The notes beneath the pieces were generated by a model that ran no database searches, was not told where the DNA came from, and saw nothing but the letters and a program-made list of their open reading frames with translations. A stretch of 64,000 bases of DNA from Lentisphaerota bacterium (lineage in GTDB: Bacteria > Verrucomicrobiota > Kiritimatiellia > UBA8416 > JAIOPI01): contig JAIOPI010000024.1 of assembly GCA_021413965.1 (NCBI GenBank), forward strand, positions 1 through 64,000. The letters run 5' to 3'. Position 1 is the first letter of the stretch. The number at the start of each line of letters is the position of its first letter. Shown here piece after piece: positions 1 through 11,300 of this stretch. Both the position numbers and the translations under genes were made by a program.

Positions 1-153
1 GTGGCCGGGGTCCTCAGCTGCCAAAAGGGGGCGATTAAAGAACACCTGCTCCGCCTCCAGGGGCGTAACCTTGTGAGCGTCCCAGTTCTTCTGGGCATTC
101 CCCCCGCTCCAGTCAAATCCTTCAAACTCAGGCGCCGACGCAAGCTCCATCAT
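1..153 (-). CDS. brnT: BrnT family type II toxin, N-terminal part (runs off the left edge)
   Basis: The first 51 residues are visible. They contain the BrnT signature: FDWSGGNAQKNWDAHKV (residues 13-29) followed by an EAEQVFFNRPLL segment (34-45). BrnT is a RelE-like ribonuclease toxin normally followed by its antitoxin BrnA, which would lie beyond the left edge. The start is ATG at 153 or the adjacent ATG at 150. It is the last cassette visible in the attC array and is preceded by its own promoter-like sequence, which is common for toxin-antitoxin cassettes. The family assignment rests on the motif pattern. Catalytic residues further along cannot be checked here. Confidence 0.8.
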   Translation of the reverse strand, partial: MMELASAPEFEGFDWSGGNAQKNWDAHKVTPLEAEQVFFNRPLLAAEDPGH

Positions 154-160
154 GGGGATG

Positions 161-189
161 AGTGTATATGGTTATCGTACACAGGTCAA
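161..189 (-). promoter_or_regulatory. Putative promoter of the brnT cassette
   Basis: On the minus strand TTGACC (189-184) is separated by 17 bases from TACACT (166-161), and ATG follows 7-10 bases later, so the transcript would be nearly leaderless. The spacer and -10 form a GTGTA...TACAC inverted repeat (182-162) that could be an operator for autoregulation, as BrnA does in other BrnTA systems. This is a sequence reading only. Confidence 0.45.
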
Positions 190-215
190 GTCGCGTGTGA
201 TTCACTCGCCGAAGG

Positions 216-292
216 GCCGAACGCCCGCGTTCAGCCGCAAAATGACCCGCGTCCGCGCGGGTCATTTTGTAGGCTGCGACGCGTTGTTGGGA
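216..292 (-). repeat. attC-like recombination site 1
   Basis: The core ends on the minus strand are TCCCAAC (292-286) and GTTCGGC (222-216). Between them lies a long imperfect palindrome with 13-base arms at 239-251 and 256-268. The upstream protein gene ends inside this site, so its C-terminus (PNNASQPTK) is encoded by attC sequence, a frequent trait of cassette proteins. Confidence 0.7.
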
Positions 293-780
293 GCTTCCTC
301 GTTTGCTTCCGTCAGTTCAATTCCGTTGCGTCTGAATGCTCGCAGCAAGGCCGCCACCACGGCGTCCTTCTCTTCAGGAGGTTGGGGCTGCCTGGGAAGC
401 ACGACCGGAGACTTCTCTATGTGAACGTAGGTCGGACGCTGCTGATAGACGGAGAGCTGCACGCCGGGTGCCTGTGTGTTCCACGTGAGGTATCGGAATT
501 CGGGGTGTGGTTCCATGTGGTACCCGCTGCGCCTGTAGGTTTCGCCCGTTGTTACGAATATGGTTTCGTGAGTCGTGGTCACGACGAGCCGCGTCCCCTG
601 CGTCTCGAGTCTACATTCGCGAACGTGCGCCAGGGTGTTGGTCTCTTTGGCTTCACTCAGAAACTGCTGCAGCGCAGAAGCTGCTCGCAGCATTGCGTTG
701 CTCGGGGTTGTCAAATCCCCGGCATTCGCACACCGCAACGCTAAGACCATGCTGCAGATGATTGTCGAGTATTTCTTCAT
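262..780 (-). CDS. Cassette-borne exported protein of unknown function
   Basis: A 172-residue protein starting MKKYSTIICSMVLALRCANA, a typical signal peptide with a likely cleavage after ANA. The mature part has no family I recognise. It is hydrophilic, with several short beta-like segments around residues 45-75 and a proline-rich stretch near 125-135. The C-terminal residues NNASQPTK are encoded inside the attC site at 216-292. The start codon lies 16 bases after the preceding attC core (797-803), so the gene has almost no leader of its own and probably depends on read-through transcription from an upstream cassette or on a promoter hidden in the attC region. Confidence 0.7.
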   Translation of the reverse strand: MKKYSTIICSMVLALRCANAGDLTTPSNAMLRAASALQQFLSEAKETNTLAHVRECRLETQGTRLVVTTTHETIFVTTGETYRRSGYHMEPHPEFRYLTWNTQAPGVQLSVYQQRPTYVHIEKSPVVLPRQPQPPEEKDAVVAALLRAFRRNGIELTEANEEAPNNASQPTK

Positions 781-796
781 TTCATCTTGCCTGCGC

Positions 797-906
797 TCCC
801 AACGCCTGCGTTCACCGGCGATGGGTCCGCGGCGTGAGGTGTGCTCCTGATTGACCCGCAGGCCTCATGCCGCGGACCCATCGTACGGTGCGACGCGTTG
901 TTGGGG
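797..906 (-). repeat. attC-like recombination site 2
   Basis: The core ends on the minus strand are CCCCAAC (906-900) and GTTGGGA (803-797). The arms at about 809-840 and 863-895 pair over most of their length with a few bulged bases, leaving a loop of about 22 bases. This is the clearest attC architecture in the array. Confidence 0.75.
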
Positions 907-914
907 CATTTCGT

Positions 915-1217
915 TCATTGAATGCTCTGCCATTTGGCCTGGTCTTTGGTGAGCGGAAACCTCTGATGCACGAGTGATGACTGCTTTACTCGAAAATAGC
1001 GTTCAGTGTCTCGAGCGGTCGGAGGGTAGGAATTCAGTTCCCTTTGTTCTCCAACGAAATAGTCAAATCCGTCGTCAGTGCCTGTGTAGTGGAAGCGCTC
1101 GTGTGCACGAGGGGTACCAGTAATTGATAGCAGTTCCGCATCAGTCAATTCCGCAGGTTGGTGGCAGCCGAACAGCAAAGCGCAGGATGCTAACAGAATC
1201 AGGCGATGTCTTCTCAT
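915..1217 (-). CDS. Small cassette-borne lipoprotein of unknown function
   Basis: A 100-residue protein. The start chosen is ATG at 1217, giving MRRHRLILLASCALLFGCHQ, a lipoprotein signal with lipobox LFGC and the lipidated cysteine at residue 18. A longer reading from 1331 would translate through attC site 3 and is unlikely. The start lies only 8 bases after the core of the preceding attC-like site (1226-1232). The mature 83 residues contain no domain I can name. Outer-membrane or periplasmic attachment is inferred from the lipobox. Confidence 0.65.
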   Translation of the reverse strand: MRRHRLILLASCALLFGCHQPAELTDAELLSITGTPRAHERFHYTGTDDGFDYFVGEQRELNSYPPTARDTERYFRVKQSSLVHQRFPLTKDQAKWQSIQ

Positions 1218-1225
1218 GATTGTTG

Positions 1226-1327
1226 CCCCAACGTCGGAGCTCACCGGACGGCGGGAAGCAACCGGAGGCCCGCGCCGAGTGGGCCAAAGGTTGCGGACAG
1301 CCGTACCGGTGCAGCGACTTGTTCGCT
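1226..1327 (-). repeat. attC-like recombination site 3
   Basis: On the minus strand the site runs from AGCGAAC (1327-1321) to GTTGGGG (1232-1226). Paired arms include CACCGGTACGGC with GCCGTCCGGTG, and CCGCAACC with GGTTGC. The 5' core is degenerate compared with the RYYYAAC consensus. Confidence 0.6.
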
Positions 1328-1461
1328 GCACCTAATTCCGACCCGAGCTCCTAACCAAGTTGCTCACTTCTCTTGGTGACCGGCGGGCGGCTCCGAATCT
1401 CAGACATTTCCGTTTAGGCAGTCTGCCGCCCGCCAATACATTCATTCAACATTTCCGAGGC
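1328..1461. other. Gene-less cassette body
   Basis: About 134 bases between two attC-like sites with no convincing reading frame. It holds a 10-base inverted repeat (GGCGGGCGGC near 1382-1391 and GCCGCCCGCC near 1425-1434) that could be a terminator, a small RNA or the remnant of another attC. Gene-less cassettes are known from chromosomal integrons. Confidence 0.4.
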
Positions 1462-1570
1462 AGCGAACGCCCGTGCTGAGGCTGAGTGTTTCGCGGCGTG
1501 GTTGCTGCTCCTCGTCCGTCCGCAGCAACCATGCCGCGGAACACGATAGCTCTCCAGCACGTTGTTGGGC
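1462..1570 (-). repeat. attC-like recombination site 4
   Basis: The core ends on the minus strand are GCCCAAC (1570-1564, a perfect RYYYAAC match) and GTTCGCT (1468-1462). Arms CGTGCTG/CAGCACG, GTGTTCCGCGGC/GCCGCGAAACAC and GGTTGCTGC/GCAGCAACC stack into one long imperfect hairpin. The site begins 21 bases after the stop codon of the gene at 1591-2196. Confidence 0.75.
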
Positions 1571-1590
1571 TCCGATCCTTTGACTGCCCC

Positions 1591-2196
1591 TCAATGCTCT
1601 TGGATCCTGGTGGAAAACACCACTACGTTCGTCCCAAGTGGGAATGTCCCATCAAATGGCATAAGCACCTGAGGAGAGTGGTTTGCGTCCGCCGTGAACA
1701 AGGAGACAACGCCCCTCATGCTGACGGCATTGTCTTCCAATGAGAAGACTAACACCCTCGCGAGTATGCCCGGCCCATGAGAAATGGAGACGACATCACC
1801 GCCGAGGTGAATGGTGGACTGGCATTGCTGGTTGGTGCCCTCGTTCTCTACACGCACTTCTGTCCATTTGCCAACAGTTGCCTGGATAGTATGGAGTGTG
1901 AGTAGATCGACGCCCCCCTTGCCGGAAAGAATCTGACTTAGCTCATCTGGGGAGAGTGTGCTGTTGCTGGCCATTTGCCACTGGTCCGTCATCACCCAAG
2001 GGGCTTGATCGTCCGGGTGCTCTACGATGTGGGCCATTTTCAAGTTGATTGCGACGGTTTCGCCGTGACGTGAAGCAAGCACGGTGAGTTCACGCCTTGT
2101 GATCGTCTGCGGCTTCGAATCGGGATTCGTAACTGATTGACGGTTTGACACACAACCGGCAGCTAAGAAAAGCAGCAGTGGTAGAGTTTTCTTCAT
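1591..2196 (-). CDS. Cassette-borne lipoprotein of unknown function
   Basis: A 201-residue protein starting MKKTLPLLLFLAAGC, a lipoprotein signal with lipobox LAAGC and the lipidated cysteine at residue 15. The mature part has a mixed alpha/beta appearance. Its C-terminal half (about residues 120-195) is rich in short hydrophobic strands and loosely resembles the beta-rich region of secretin-type proteins, but the similarity is too weak to name. The gene sits between a GTTGGGC core (2211-2217) and attC site 4, making it the first cassette of the array as read on the minus strand. A GGAG-like ribosome binding site precedes the start. Confidence 0.7.
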   Translation of the reverse strand: MKKTLPLLLFLAAGCVSNRQSVTNPDSKPQTITRRELTVLASRHGETVAINLKMAHIVEHPDDQAPWVMTDQWQMASNSTLSPDELSQILSGKGGVDLLTLHTIQATVGKWTEVRVENEGTNQQCQSTIHLGGDVVSISHGPGILARVLVFSLEDNAVSMRGVVSLFTADANHSPQVLMPFDGTFPLGTNVVVFSTRIQEH

Positions 2197-2210
2197 TCTT
2201 GTCTCCGTTA

Positions 2211-2217
2211 GCCCAAC
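2211..2217 (-). repeat. Recombination core at the array boundary
   Basis: GTTGGGC on the minus strand matches GTTRRRY and lies 14 bases before the first cassette gene. The flanking sequence out to 2297 does not fold into a clear attC, so this may be the remnant of an attI site or of a degraded attC. Confidence 0.45.
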
Positions 2218-2690
2218 TCTACATAGGTCGACGTCTGGTTTCGGAGGCCTGTGACGCGGGCCGACCCTTTTAGGGTGTCAGAATCGGACGGTTGGTCAAG
2301 CGCAAGATTTTCTCAGCTTTTCCCGGAATGGCCGGAGGTTTGACTCTTTATGTCAGTAAAGGGGGGCGTCGCGTCGAGTTGGCGTTTGGCGGGCAGGACC
2401 GGGATGGGACGCCGTTGGCCTATCCCGGAGACGAACGGGCGGTTTGGGGCCAAAACGTGCGTCAGAAAGTTGGCTTTTGGCCGGCATTGGGATGATAGGC
2501 CGACGTTGGCCTAGCAAGGTATTGAGCAAGGAGCGAGGTGCAACATGCCGACCGACAGCGATTTGCTATGGCAGCGCGTCACCGAGCATCTGCTTCGGCG
2601 CCAGTTACCCCAATTGGTATGGCTGGGAACTTGACACCCGTCACGTGACCCCCGAAACTTGACGTTTTGCATCTTGCACAAGGAGCCATC
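2218..2690. other. Intergenic region between cassette array and purE
   Basis: About 470 bases without a convincing full-length gene. It contains one short possible reading frame (2545-2634), a perfect 10-base palindrome GTCACGTGAC (2640-2649), and two copies of AACTTGAC (2629-2636 and 2657-2664) bracketing that palindrome, one of which could supply a -35 element for purE. No integrase or attI could be identified here. Confidence 0.5.
2545..2634 (+). pseudogene. Very short open frame, possibly the 5' stub of a broken gene
   Basis: A 29-residue frame (beginning MPTDSDLLWQRVTEHL) is preceded by AAGGAG ten bases before the ATG. The LWQRV...L...LP spacing is reminiscent of the first helix of DnaA domain I, but the frame stops after 29 residues. 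It may be a truncated gene left by rearrangement next to the integron array, or chance. Assignment is weak. Confidence 0.2.
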
Positions 2691-3215
2691 ATGAAAGTGA
2701 AGCAGCCAGCCGTCGGAATTGTCATGGGCAGTGACTCGGATTGGCCGGTGGTCGAGGAGGCCAGCCGGCTGTTGAACGAGTTCGGCGTCGCGCACGAGGT
2801 CCGCGTCATCTCGGCCCACCGGGCGCCGGATGCCGTGGCCGCCTACGCCAAATCCGCCGCGCGCCGCGGCCTGAAGGTCCTTATTTCCTGTGCCGGCGGC
2901 GCCGCGCACCTCGGAGGCGTGTTGGCGGCACATACCCCGCTGCCGGTCATCGGGCTCCCGATGCCGGGTGGCTCCTTGAATGGACTCGACTCGCTGTATG
3001 CCACGCTGCAGATGCCCGCGGGCATTCCCGTCGCCACCGTGACGCTCGGCAAGGCGGGCCCCGTGAATGCGGCCGTGTTTGCCGTCCAGATCCTCGCGCT
3101 CGCCAATCCCGAACTGGCCCGCAAAGTGGTGGCTTACAAGGCCGCCCTGGAGCGCAAGGTGGCGGAAGGCGACAAGCGCGTGCAGGCGGATATCGCCGCC
3201 AAGCGGCGGGCGTAG
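2691..3215 (+). CDS. purE: N5-carboxyaminoimidazole ribonucleotide mutase
   Basis: Converts N5-CAIR to CAIR in de novo purine synthesis. The 174-residue length and motifs GSDSDW (residues 12-17), SAHRAP and AGGAAHLGG are those of class I PurE, which works with PurK. No purK is visible in the window. The start is ATG at 2691, preceded by AAGGAG at 2680-2685. A longer frame beginning at 2667 lacks a ribosome binding site. It is the first gene of a plus-strand run in which the next start lies 6 bases after this stop. Confidence 0.95.
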   Translation: MKVKQPAVGIVMGSDSDWPVVEEASRLLNEFGVAHEVRVISAHRAPDAVAAYAKSAARRGLKVLISCAGGAAHLGGVLAAHTPLPVIGLPMPGGSLNGLDSLYATLQMPAGIPVATVTLGKAGPVNAAVFAVQILALANPELARKVVAYKAALERKVAEGDKRVQADIAAKRRA

Positions 3216-4250: not shown

Positions 4251-4895
4251 GTGCCAGATGACGGACATATGACTGCGGATTCCAAAATCATCTCTGTCGA
4301 CGCCGTGGGGAAGGACGCGGCCGTGGCGCGCGTGGCCGCCCGTTTGCGCGCCGGCGGGCTGGTCGTGATTCCCACGGACACCGTCTACGGTCTCGCGGCC
4401 CACCCCGATTGTCCGGCCGCCGTCGAGCACCTGTTCACGGTAAAAGGCCGCGATGCCGCCAAGGCCATCCCCCTGCTGATTGCGGATGCCGGCGACGCGC
4501 ACCGCTTCGGCGCCGAACTGTCACCCTTCGCCGCGCGACTTGCCGCACGCTTCTGGCCGGGGGCGCTGACGCTGGTGCTGCCGGTGGGTGGCACCGACGG
4601 GCGCACGGAAGGCTTCCGCGTGCCCGCCTCCACCATCACACGCGCCCTGCTGCGGGCCGTCGGCGGCGGCCTGCGGGTCACCAGCGCCAATCGCAGCGGG
4701 GAGCCGCCGGCGACGACGGCCGACGCCGCCCTGCAGGCCCTGGACCACGATGTGGACCTGGTTCTGGATGCCGGCCCCGCGTCGCACGGGGTCGCGAGCA
4801 CGGTGGCCCGCCTGGCGGGGGATACGGTTGACATTCTGCGCGTCGGCGTCATCACGGCGGACGACCTGCGCGCGGCGGGGGTGCGGGTGTCATGA
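4251..4895 (+). CDS. tsaC: L-threonylcarbamoyladenylate synthase (Sua5/YrdC/TsaC)
   Basis: Makes threonylcarbamoyl-AMP from threonine, bicarbonate and ATP for the t6A modification of tRNAs reading ANN codons. The 214-residue protein shows the YrdC fold motifs VIPTDTVYGL, KGRDAAKAIPL and VTSANRSGEPP. It has no C-terminal Sua5 extension. The start may be ATG at 4251 or at 4269. The stop overlaps the following start by four bases (ATGA), indicating translational coupling to the phosphatase gene, a neighbourhood (tsaC, phosphatase, rpiB, glyA) also seen in Firmicutes and other phyla. Confidence 0.92.
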   Translation: MPDDGHMTADSKIISVDAVGKDAAVARVAARLRAGGLVVIPTDTVYGLAAHPDCPAAVEHLFTVKGRDAAKAIPLLIADAGDAHRFGAELSPFAARLAARFWPGALTLVLPVGGTDGRTEGFRVPASTITRALLRAVGGGLRVTSANRSGEPPATTADAALQALDHDVDLVLDAGPASHGVASTVARLAGDTVDILRVGVITADDLRAAGVRVS

Positions 4896-5410
4896 ACGGG
4901 CGTCGCGGCAACCTGATCAAGGGCTCGAAACCGATCCAGCGCCAGGTGCTGTTTGTCTGCACCGGCAACGTCTGCCGCAGCCCCATGGCGGAGTACTTGC
5001 TGCGGGCGGCGCTGGGGGCCGGCACCGCCTGGCGCGTGGCCTCGGCAGGCCTGTTGGCCCACCCCGGCCAGCCCGCGAGCGACGAGGCCGTCCAGACCCT
5101 GGCCACGCGCGGCATTGACCTGCGCCGGCATCGCAGCCGGACGCTGACCCGTGATCTGATTGACGCGGCGACGCTGGTTGTGGTAATGACCCGGGCGCAT
5201 CGCGAGCAGATTGAAGCCTTGTATCCCGACACGCGGGCCAAGGTCTATCTCCTCAAAACGTTCGACCCCGCGGCCGCGGACCCGGATGTCGAAGACCCCA
5301 TCGGGATGCCCATCCGCATCTACAGTGAAACGTGCGACGAAATCCGGGCCGCCTTGCCGGGGCTCGTGCAATACATGGAAACATTCCGACCCGCGGACAC
5401 GGCATCATGA
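4892..5410 (+). CDS. Low-molecular-weight protein-tyrosine/arginine phosphatase
   Basis: A 172-residue protein with the LMW-PTP P-loop CTGNVCRSP (Cys23 to Arg29) and a C-terminal DPDVEDPIG segment that supplies the general-acid aspartate. Relatives beside tsaC and rpiB include the B. subtilis protein-arginine phosphatase YwlE, whose P-loop is CTGNTCRSP. Here valine replaces the threonine that favours phosphoarginine, so tyrosine specificity is possible. Both ends overlap neighbours by four bases (tsaC and rpiB-glyA), so the genes are translationally coupled. Confidence 0.88.
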
Positions 5411-7089
5411 AAATTGCTCTCGGATCTGATCACGGCGGATTTGCCATCAAGGAAGCGCTGCGCGACGTGCTCGTACGCCGCCAGATCGAGGTGGAAGACC
5501 TCGGCTGCCACAACCTCGAGGCGGTGGACTACCCGGATTACGCGCGCGCCGTGGCCGCCCGGGTGTCGACCGGGGCCGTGGATGAAGGCCTGCTGGTCTG
5601 CACCACGGGCATCGGCATGTCGATGGCCGCCAACCGCTACCCGCGGGTGCGCGCCGCGCTGTGCCTGAACCCGGACATGGCCGAAACGGCCCGCACGCAC
5701 AACAACGCCAACGTGCTCGTGCTGGCCGGCGGCAAAGTCAACGCGGAACAGGCCATCGCCATTCTCAACCGCTGGATCGGCACCTCCTTCTCCAACGCCG
5801 AGCGTCATGCCCGCCGCATCGCCAAGATGGACCCGGTCTCCTGCGGCGACTCCGGCACCGCCGCGGTGCAGGACATTGACCCGGAACTGTTTGCCGCCAT
5901 GCAGCGCGAGACGGTCCGCCAGCAGGAAACCATCGGCCTGATCGCCTCGGAAAACTATGTCAGCCGCGCCGTGCGCGAGGCGCAGGGCTCGGTGCTGACG
6001 AACAAGTACGCGGAGGGCTACCCGGGCCGCCGCTGGTACAACGGCTGCCAGTACGTGGACGAAGTCGAACAGCTGGCCATTGACCGCGCCAAGGCCCTGT
6101 TCGGCGCGGAGCACGTCAACGTCCAACCGCATTCCGGCAGCAGCGCCAACATCGCCGTCTACCTCGCCGTGCTCAAGCCCGGGGACACCCTGATGGCCAT
6201 GAGCCTGTCGCACGGCGGCCATCTCACGCACGGGCACGAGCTGAACCTGTCCGGACGCCTCTACCGCATCGTCTCCTACGGCGTGCAGCCGGGCAGCGAA
6301 GTGCTGGACTACGACGAGGTGGAGCGCCAGGCGGTGGCGGAGCGGCCGCGGCTCATCGTCGCCGGGGCGAGCGCCTATCCGCGCCTGCTGGATTTCGAGC
6401 GTTTCCGCGCCATTGCGGATCGCGTGGGCGCACTGCTGATGGTCGATATGGCCCACATCGCCGGGCTCGTGGCCGGGGGCTCCCACCCCTCGCCTTTCCC
6501 CCACGCGGACCTCGTCACCACCACCACGCACAAAACCTTGCGCGGTCCGCGCAGCGGGATGATCCTCTGCCGCGAGCGTTTCGCGGCGGACATCGACCGC
6601 AGCATCTTCCCGGGCACCCAGGGCGGCCCGCTCATGCACACCGTGGCCGCCAAGGCGGTGTGCTACGCGGAGGCGCTGCGCCCGGGATTCAAGACCTATG
6701 CCCACCAGGTGGTGCGGAATGCCCGCGCCATGGCGGCCACCCTCAAGGCTCACGGGTGCCGGATCGTCTCCGGCGGTACGGACAACCACATGCTGCTCGT
6801 GGACGTGGCCCCGCTGAATCTGACCGGCAAGGAAGCCGCGACGGAACTCGAAAAAGCCAACATCGTGGTCAACAAGAACGTCATCCCGTTCGATCAGAAG
6901 AGCCCGTTCGTGACGTCGGGCATCCGCATCGGCACCCCGGGCGCCACGACGCGCGGCATGGGCGAGGCCGAAGTGGTGCGCGTGGCGGAGATGATTGCCA
7001 GCATTCTACGGCATCGCGGCGACGAGTCCGTGCTGGCCCGCGCGCGGGAGGAGATCCGCACCCTCGCCCGCCGCTTCCCGGCCCCGTAA
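5407..7089 (+). CDS. Fusion of ribose-5-phosphate isomerase B and serine hydroxymethyltransferase
   Basis: One 560-residue frame. Residues 1-145 are RpiB (SDHGG at 7-11, catalytic Cys65 in CTTGIGMS, His98). From about residue 155 it is a complete SHMT ([11 protein letters not shown] at 203-213, PLP lysine Lys376 in THKTLRG). RpiB interconverts ribose-5-phosphate and ribulose-5-phosphate; SHMT makes glycine and 5,10-methylene-THF from serine. These two genes are often adjacent in other bacteria, and here no stop separates them. An ATG at 5830 could allow separate SHMT translation, but a ribosome binding site is not obvious. The start overlaps the phosphatase stop (ATGA). Confidence 0.92.
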
Positions 7090-9596: not shown

Positions 9597-11300
9597 TCAG
9601 CCAACGACGCCTGCCACCGCGCGATCCAATTCCTCCAAGGCCACCGGCTTGCTGACGACGCCGTTAATGCCAGCCGGGTGCGTGCCGGCGTCCTTCATCA
9701 AGTCGCCAAACCCCGTCAGCATAAGGATCGCCACCGCCGGGTCCTGGCTGCGAATCCGGGCGGCCACTTCGTCGCCGCTGATGTCCGGCATGGCCCGGTC
9801 GGTAATCACCAGGTCGTATGCCCGGGGCTGGAACAGGCGCAATCCATCCTGGCCGCAGATCGCCGACGTCACCTGGTGATCCCGCCGCCGGAAGTGATCG
9901 CCCAGCAGCCGGCAGATCGCCCCGTCGTCATCGATGATCAGGATGCGCAGCGCGCGCGCGGGCACACGGGCCGCGGGCACGAGCGGGGACGCATCACGTG
10001 GGACATCCGCCAGCGTCGCGGGCAGCACCACCACCACCGTGGTGCCGCGACCGGCATGGCTGCGCACATCCACCTGCCCGCCATGCGCCCGCACGATGCC
10101 ATAAACCACGGCCAGACCGATGCCGGCCGCGTGCGCGCCCTTGGTCGAGAAAAAGGGCTCAAAACACCGCTGCAACGTGGACTCGGCCATCCCGACACCG
10201 GTATCCGAAATCGTCACCTCCACCCCGGCGTCACAGGCCCGGGTGGTCACCGTCAGCTTCCCGCCATCCGGCATGGCTTCATAGGCATTGGCCAGAATAC
10301 TCGCGAAGGCTTCCTGCAGTTCGGCATCATTGCCCGGGATCGCCGGAACCGTGCCCAGATTTCGGACCACACTCACGGAGGGAACGGCGTTCCCGGGTTC
10401 TCTCCCGGCGCGCTCACGCTCCCGCGCCAACGCCGTGTCGAGCAGAAGGTTCAGATCGACAGACTGGCGCTCTCCCGAGCGGGCCGGCTGATAGAACTCG
10501 CGCAACTGACGGATTTCCTGGGCAGCCCGCAGCGTGGCGGCGCGAATCTCGTGCAGGTACTTCATGGTCTCGACACGCTGCTCCAACAGGTCCGGCTGCT
10601 CCAGCAACAACTCGGTGTAACCCTGAATCGGCATCAAGGCATTGTTGAAATCGTGCATCATGCGGGCCGCCATCTGCCCCAGCGCGCTCAATCGTTCCGA
10701 TTGGATGAGACACCGCTGCGCACGCTTCAGCGCAATCAACGCGTCCGACAGGCGGACATTGGCGGCCAGCAGCTCCGTCTCCGTCTGGCAATGCCGGCGA
10801 ATCTCCTCCTCCAGCATGTGATTCGTCCGCACCAGGCTGGCGCTGCGCTCTTCCACCAGATCCTCGAGCCGATCCTGGTACCGGCGCAGGGCCGCCTGTG
10901 CCTGGTGCCGCTCTATGGCGTAGCGTATCACCCGGGCCAGCGTATCGCCCTCAAAGCAGCCCTTGACGAGATAGTCCTGCGCGCCCTCCTGCAGCGCCTG
11001 CAGCGCCGCCTGTTCGTCATCCAGCCCGGTGAGGACCAGGAGGGGAACCTGGGGAAGCAGGGCGCGCGCCTGACGCAGGGTTTCAATGCCCTGGCTTTCC
11101 TCCAGATGCAGGTCGACCAGGATGATATCGGGCGTGCGCTCGGCCGCGCGGGCGACGCCCTCGGCCAGACTGCCGGCGATGACCAGGTGGAACGAGGCGC
11201 GGCGCGCATCCGCCATCAAGCGCCGGGTGAGCACCTGATCGGACTCGTTGTCCTCGATCAGCAATACCCAGATTGGGCCCACCGTTCCTCCTTGTGCCAT
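9597..11300 (-). CDS. Hybrid sensor kinase with HDFNN-type H-box: receiver - kinase - receiver
   Basis: A 567-residue soluble protein with the same layout as its downstream neighbour. It has an N-terminal receiver (Asp63 in ILVDLHLEE), a coiled coil (about 135-200), an H-box MMHDFNNALMPI with His216, and an ATPase domain (NAYEAMPDGG, DTGVGM, GIGLAVVYGI). A C-terminal receiver carries LVITDRAMPD. The HDFNN/HD-type H-box is typical of kinases that also act as phosphatases. It is the first gene of the minus-strand cluster and is divergent from the NarL-type regulator across a 260-base spacer. Confidence 0.9.
   Translation of the reverse strand: MAQGGTVGPIWVLLIEDNESDQVLTRRLMADARRASFHLVIAGSLAEGVARAAERTPDIILVDLHLEESQGIETLRQARALLPQVPLLVLTGLDDEQAALQALQEGAQDYLVKGCFEGDTLARVIRYAIERHQAQAALRRYQDRLEDLVEERSASLVRTNHMLEEEIRRHCQTETELLAANVRLSDALIALKRAQRCLIQSERLSALGQMAARMMHDFNNALMPIQGYTELLLEQPDLLEQRVETMKYLHEIRAATLRAAQEIRQLREFYQPARSGERQSVDLNLLLDTALARERERAGREPGNAVPSVSVVRNLGTVPAIPGNDAELQEAFASILANAYEAMPDGGKLTVTTRACDAGVEVTISDTGVGMAESTLQRCFEPFFSTKGAHAAGIGLAVVYGIVRAHGGQVDVRSHAGRGTTVVVVLPATLADVPRDASPLVPAARVPARALRILIIDDDGAICRLLGDHFRRRDHQVTSAICGQDGLRLFQPRAYDLVITDRAMPDISGDEVAARIRSQDPAVAILMLTGFGDLMKDAGTHPAGINGVVSKPVALEELDRAVAGVVG

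Follow-up and report, generated by a model that had tools for sequence, protein, structure and literature searches.

Integron integrases (IntI) recombine the folded bottom strand of attC sites with attI, and CALINs, arrays of at least two attC sites with no intI nearby, can be mobilised by IntI in trans (PMC9668308; PMC12444791). In frequency CALINs roughly equal complete integrons (PMC9024848), and loss of intI with survival of the array has been described in Xanthomonas (PMC12444791) and Treponema phagedenis (PMC3607928). The origin of a CALIN usually has to be guessed, whereas at the locus described here the scar can be read in the form of an attI, a leader and 21 intI codons. Verrucomicrobiota stand on the published list of integron-bearing phyla (PMC8618304), and an IntI above the curated cut-off was found in 90 of 193 related genomes and in none of 14 control genomes, so the view of the initial annotation that cassette arrays are not widely described in this lineage did not hold. 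On integrons in the Kiritimatiellae specifically, a poorly studied class in which about half of the searched genomes carry an integron integrase, no paper was found.

The first letter of the window, the whole 64-kb stretch of DNA analysed, coincides with a contig end, which rules out direct extension to the left; the contig, C27, belongs to a MAG of 5.43 Mb in 42 contigs with an estimated contamination of 0.33%. The left end of the window reads, on sequence grounds, as the head of an integron with a deleted integrase (Table 1). The explanation that we regard as probable is that a sedentary chromosomal integron between purD and purE, of which the window holds the attI end, lost its integrase by deletion and is most likely served in trans by the IntI of a complete integron on contig C19.

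Table 1. Features at the left end of the window, in order of position.
Feature	Position	Strand	Evidence or remark
Cassette 5, partial, off contig end	1..221	-	start G^TTCGGCCC at ~221; brnT start at 1-153
Promoter-like TTGACC-17-TACACT, within cassette 5 before brnT	161..189	-	consensus scan only
attC of cassette 4	216..292	-	R1 E 9e-5
Cassette 4	222..802	-	9-nt matching ends GTTGGGAGC
attC of cassette 3	797..906	-	R1 E 1e-15
Cassette 3	803..1231	-	9-nt matching ends GTTGGGGCA
attC of cassette 2	1226..1327	-	R1 E 6e-4
Cassette 2	1232..1467	-	9-nt matching ends GTTCGCTGC
attC of cassette 1	1462..1570	-	R1 E 2e-22; stem covariation vs C19 copy
Cassette 1	1468..2216	-	8-nt matching ends
attI, ...ACGTCGACCTATGTAGAG^TT	2215..2240	-	insertion point 2215-2217; 26/26 identical to C19 attI
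Leader, attI to intI start	2241..2544	+	ACGTTGGCCTA repeats at 2412, 2496, 2503; 91-bp-spaced repeat
intI stub, first 21 codons (MPTDSDLLWQRVTEHLLRRQL)	2545..2607	+	colinear with C19 intI start, 71% DNA identity
purE, chromosomal flank	2691..3215	+	TIGR01162 above cut-off

The initial annotation had described four attC-like palindromes with core-like ends bounding minus-strand cassettes, in DNA of lower GC content than the neighbouring chromosome, and this description is borne out in each of its parts. A covariance model (R1) trained independently on 10 attC sites, drawn from the genome's other contigs and from a related MAG and with none from the window, returned the four sites at the same coordinates, to the base and on the minus strand (E 2e-22 to 6e-4); beyond them and their plus-strand palindrome echoes, the next best match over the 64 kb had an E value of 0.25. 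An earlier alignment of 16 attC sites had been too mixed and was reduced to these 10, and a covariance model was preferred to a hand-made attC grammar, whose strict R boxes overlooked two of the four sites. Rfam, searched at the gathering threshold, gave no match in the window. The GC content is 56.9% over positions 1-2300 against 67.2% in the remainder of the window, the lowest value among the other sampled 2300-bp stretches being 62.4%.

A cassette inserted as a circle brings its own TTRRRY end, and its first bases should therefore complement its own R'' box rather than that of its neighbour's attC. Each of the four complete cassettes follows this rule over its first 8-9 nt, with four different sequences (GTTGGGCT, GTTCGCTGC, GTTGGGGCA, GTTGGGAGC). 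Since only 0.23% of GTT...AAC pairs in the rest of the window match in this way, four matching cassettes in a row would be expected by chance at about 3e-11. The own-R'/own-R'' rule also applies to the C19 array and to L053, a related MAG; some cases on C19 and C3 are weaker.

The array comprises at least five cassettes. The gene of cassette 1 (1591-2196) encodes a lipoprotein-like product of 201 aa and that of cassette 4 (262-780) a product of 172 aa with a signal-peptide-like start, neither of which matches a Pfam family, while the gene of cassette 3 (915-1217) encodes 100 aa with a lipoprotein-like start. The ORF list holds no notable ORF in cassette 2 outside its own attC; the cassette contains an inverted repeat (GGCGGGCGGC...GCCGCCCGCC). 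The truncated brnT of cassette 5 gives a 51-aa match to Pfam PF04365 (BrnT_toxin, E 1.3e-5), which for a fragment of this kind falls short of the gathering score, and the promoter-like site before it is the one site found by a consensus scan in which 0.7 would be expected by chance.

To the right of the array, the GTTGGGC core noted at 2211 is real (2211-2217) and serves as the insertion point of an attI. Because attI, leader and intI start lie together at 2211-2607, this is an integron head; of the earlier wording, a CALIN or the tail of a chromosomal integron, the first half stands by software definition, which asks for two or more attC sites lacking a neighbouring integrase, whereas the second has to be replaced. 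The array does lack an integrase of its own, as had been proposed: TIGR02249 finds no match on C27, and beside attI the gene is reduced to its first 21 codons. The side on which an intI had been expected was the wrong one, since the intI side is the right and holds the stub only, intact intI genes lying on three other contigs. The absence is genuine, in that the contig continues through the intI side into purE, and it is the other side of the array that the contig end cuts off. The stub begins with an ATG at 2545, and its reading frame stops shortly beyond the 21 codons. Among the 21-residue stretches of the loci compared, its best non-self match is the N-terminus of the C19 IntI, with the N-terminus of another Kiritimatiellaeota IntI (L062) also near the top; beyond the stub the similarity to C19 ends, and purE begins 84 bases downstream. 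Retention of attI and of the intI stub thus makes an origin by intI deletion readable.

The leader is 92.7-97.7% identical to that of C19 over four measured stretches, with a 105-bp segment (2436-2540) free of mismatches. A simple scan, confined to sigma-70-like promoters, found no such site in it. Sequence adjacent to the attI core reappears in the leader before the intI start (window 2403-2513, ACGTTGGCCTA), and the same recurrence is present in L053 (1262-1280, 1501-1515 and 1594-1612, AGAACAAGC-TTAC). The motif varies with the integrase lineage, which suggests that these repeats are candidate sites of IntI autoregulation.

The C19 integron is complete and has the same order, namely array, attI, leader and intI (plus strand, 4618-5928), followed by dnaE; window positions 1463-2606 match C19 3535-4679 at 91.7%. 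Its IntI aligns over the whole chain with V. cholerae IntI4 (VchIntIA, PDB 2a3v; E 1e-69), so that the IntI-specific insert and the catalytic motifs of the C-terminus are both covered, and differs from it by about 110 extra N-terminal residues, as do relatives from several phyla; the closest named relatives of the integrase are MAGs of Kiritimatiellaeota and Verrucomicrobia, and by these relatives the host is probably one of the Kiritimatiellae. None of the relatives tested has an intI near dnaE, which makes the C19 location non-ancestral as well. The coding DNA of cassette 1 is 95.2% identical to that of the first C19 cassette, and with 29 of 606 bases differing (16 synonymous and 13 non-synonymous codon changes), any exchange between the two platforms was not very recent. 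The attC of cassette 1 is only about 78-80% identical to its C19 counterpart; 3-4 stem pairs have changed on both sides and still pair, against 4-5 pairs broken, which may be taken as modest support for selection on the hairpin.

The stub, at 71% identity to C19 intI, stands against the leader just before it, at 98%, and this speaks against a simple copy: a C19 copy followed by deletion leaves part of the pattern unexplained. An account to which we give slightly less than an even chance is that the purE locus had a divergent integron of its own, in which a C19 copy replaced the segment spanning cassette 1 through the intI start, or the reverse. Such a mosaic would fit both the identities, 92-98% over 1591-2544 against 80% in attC1 and 71% in the stub, and the fall of the drop at the intI start codon. 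The stub is short, however, and attC sequence may evolve faster than genes, since mainly its structure counts; moreover, overwriting would add history to the integrase-deletion explanation more than contradict it.

The genome contains three genes above the curated integron-integrase cut-off, on C19, C8 and C26. At the place matching attI, C8 and C26 carry sequence that differs from the C19-type attI, and their integrases probably serve other sites. On C26 (L019 2354-4984) the integron integrase is directly followed by another tyrosine recombinase of a different kind, after which comes a cassette that is codirectional with intI, as opposed to the divergent layout of C19 and C8, and the C8 integrase adjoins tandem, near-identical (about 92%) hairpin units of ~130 bp (L018 9709-10196). 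The ends of C8 and C26 hold nearly the same 141-base attC region (L018 11311-11451, L019 5673-5813), marking another assembly break inside cassette arrays, and C3, C4 and C34 also have contig ends in or close to arrays. Group IIC-attC introns at attC sites are known; on C3 (L020, C3:226000-236946; ~9740-10947) the array is followed, at an attC, by a group-II-intron-like sequence with an apparent reverse transcriptase, inside which the contig ends.

Gene order places the integron on the chromosome. In 12 of 14 testable relatives purD lies directly before purE, with a gap of 24-290 bp, and in most relatives S41-like and SUA5 genes lie downstream of purE; in the window purE is followed by an S41-protease-like gene and then a SUA5-like gene. 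The purD of this genome is found near the start of C34 (2088-3350), directed toward the contig end, from which it is separated by ~2 kb at 55.5% GC, compared with 69% beyond. This purE side of purD holds short ORFs, one of them of the DinB family, and an attC of weak score (E 0.009), in a cassette orientation consistent with that of the window. The adjacency of purD and purE in relatives, together with the cassettes beside purD, makes a position of the integron between the two genes most likely, with the array tail probably on C34. All data come from a MAG assembly, in which C34 and C27 are linked by gene order, and by that order the simplest reading would be purD, array tail (C34), gap, array head (window) and purE. 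As the insertion parted purE from purD, the leader might now act as a purE promoter, and its high identity just ahead of the former intI start would fit such a role; given the empty promoter scan, the idea remains a guess.

In the explanation that we favour, a sedentary integron would thus have occupied the purD-purE interval, and a deletion with its ends near codon 22 of intI and some 80 bp ahead of purE would have left attI intact, together with the leader and the array. Because the window attI is identical to that of C19, service in trans is the most likely working mode: the C19 IntI would excise folded attC hairpins from the window array and insert cassettes at the window attI, and would in this way act on both kinds of site. 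The array might instead be a dead relic, static and decaying since the loss of intI and closed to any action in trans, a possibility that we consider rather doubtful. Divergence from C19 amounts to ~5-7% in cassette 1 and the leader, so no recent homogenisation has taken place, and Xanthomonas arrays with inactivated intI turn stable (PMC12444791). Against decay stand an attI that matches in 26 of 26 positions, cassette ends that are all intact, a cognate integrase in the same genome, and a distal BrnT cassette shared with C19 at 98.7% (over 223 bp) while the intervening cassettes differ.

Five attI-type sites of the C19 family occur in the genome, and only the one on C19 has an integrase. An attI motif search located those on C19, C27, C23 (98.5 kb) and C25 (82.2 kb), and a search with the leader motif led to an attI-like site on C23 at 118.3 kb, next to which lies one lone cassette whose ends match over 9 nt (GTTCGGCTC), with an attC match at E 0.0016. 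The attI pattern had been derived from the other four sites, which leaves this fifth one as the only genuine prediction. The first cassettes on C25 and C23 have matching ends of 8 nt (GTTAGCGC) and 7 nt, respectively, and no intI remnant is recognisable on either contig. Two subtypes can be distinguished: C19 and C27, which are identical at the core, and the two C23 sites (C23a, C23b) with C25, where C23a shares 44/50 and 38/50 positions with the other two and C23b shares 34/50 with C25. A further motif match, on C24, lies within an RHS-repeat-like gene and was dismissed as chance. In 192 relatives the attI pattern gave only 2-mismatch matches, at about the control rate, so that among the genomes searched the set is peculiar to this one. 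A dispersed integron, in which a single integrase would serve five or more attI platforms spread over the chromosome and heading separate arrays, so that cassettes could move between the sites, and in which the purE operon would read from the former integrase promoter, is a combination that we regard as speculative and, taken whole, unlikely. One integrase with five natural attI-type sites nevertheless constitutes a test system for trans service of integrase-less arrays, and because a readable scar and an intact cognate platform share one genome, the working of such arrays in trans is directly testable.

Two further accounts question the locus itself. C27 and C19 open with an identical 141 bases within the BrnT toxin cassette, which explains why the assembly stopped there and is what would be expected of an assembler break at a shared repeat, so that, in a MAG of 42 contigs, C27 and C19 could be alternative versions of one locus, or C27 could stem from another strain. 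We judge such an artefact improbable, since the right flanks differ (purE and dnaE, each single-copy in the genome), the longest exact match near the junction, 105 bp, is shorter than the 141-base overlap, and the contamination estimate is low. That IntI placed cassettes at a chance site (attG) by purE where no integron was ever present, although attG insertion is one proposed origin of CALINs (PMC8618304), is highly improbable and was rejected, as a 330-bp attI-leader block and 21 intI codons adjoin the array in correct order.

Set against described systems, the integron with a lost integrase that we propose is closest to the Xanthomonas case at the ilvD locus (PMC12444791), which likewise has a fixed chromosomal place, an intI deleted or truncated and cassettes kept; unlike there, an intact cognate integrase with an identical attI lies elsewhere in the genome, several more attI sites occur without an integrase, and the host lineage is another. 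With CALINs the window shares its attC sites and the lack of an intI nearby, but it keeps attI, leader and intI stub and is accordingly an integron minus its integrase. In attG insertions and delta-attI-type cassettes (PMC12444791; PMC12901181), cassettes likewise lie away from the main integron and attI fragments outside it; here, by contrast, 26-50 bp of attI-type sequence precede each dispersed array, all within one genome. In a limited open-access literature no description was found of a set of five attI-type sites accompanied by a single cognate integrase, and it is this combination that is the unusual part, an array without an integrase alone being of a known kind.
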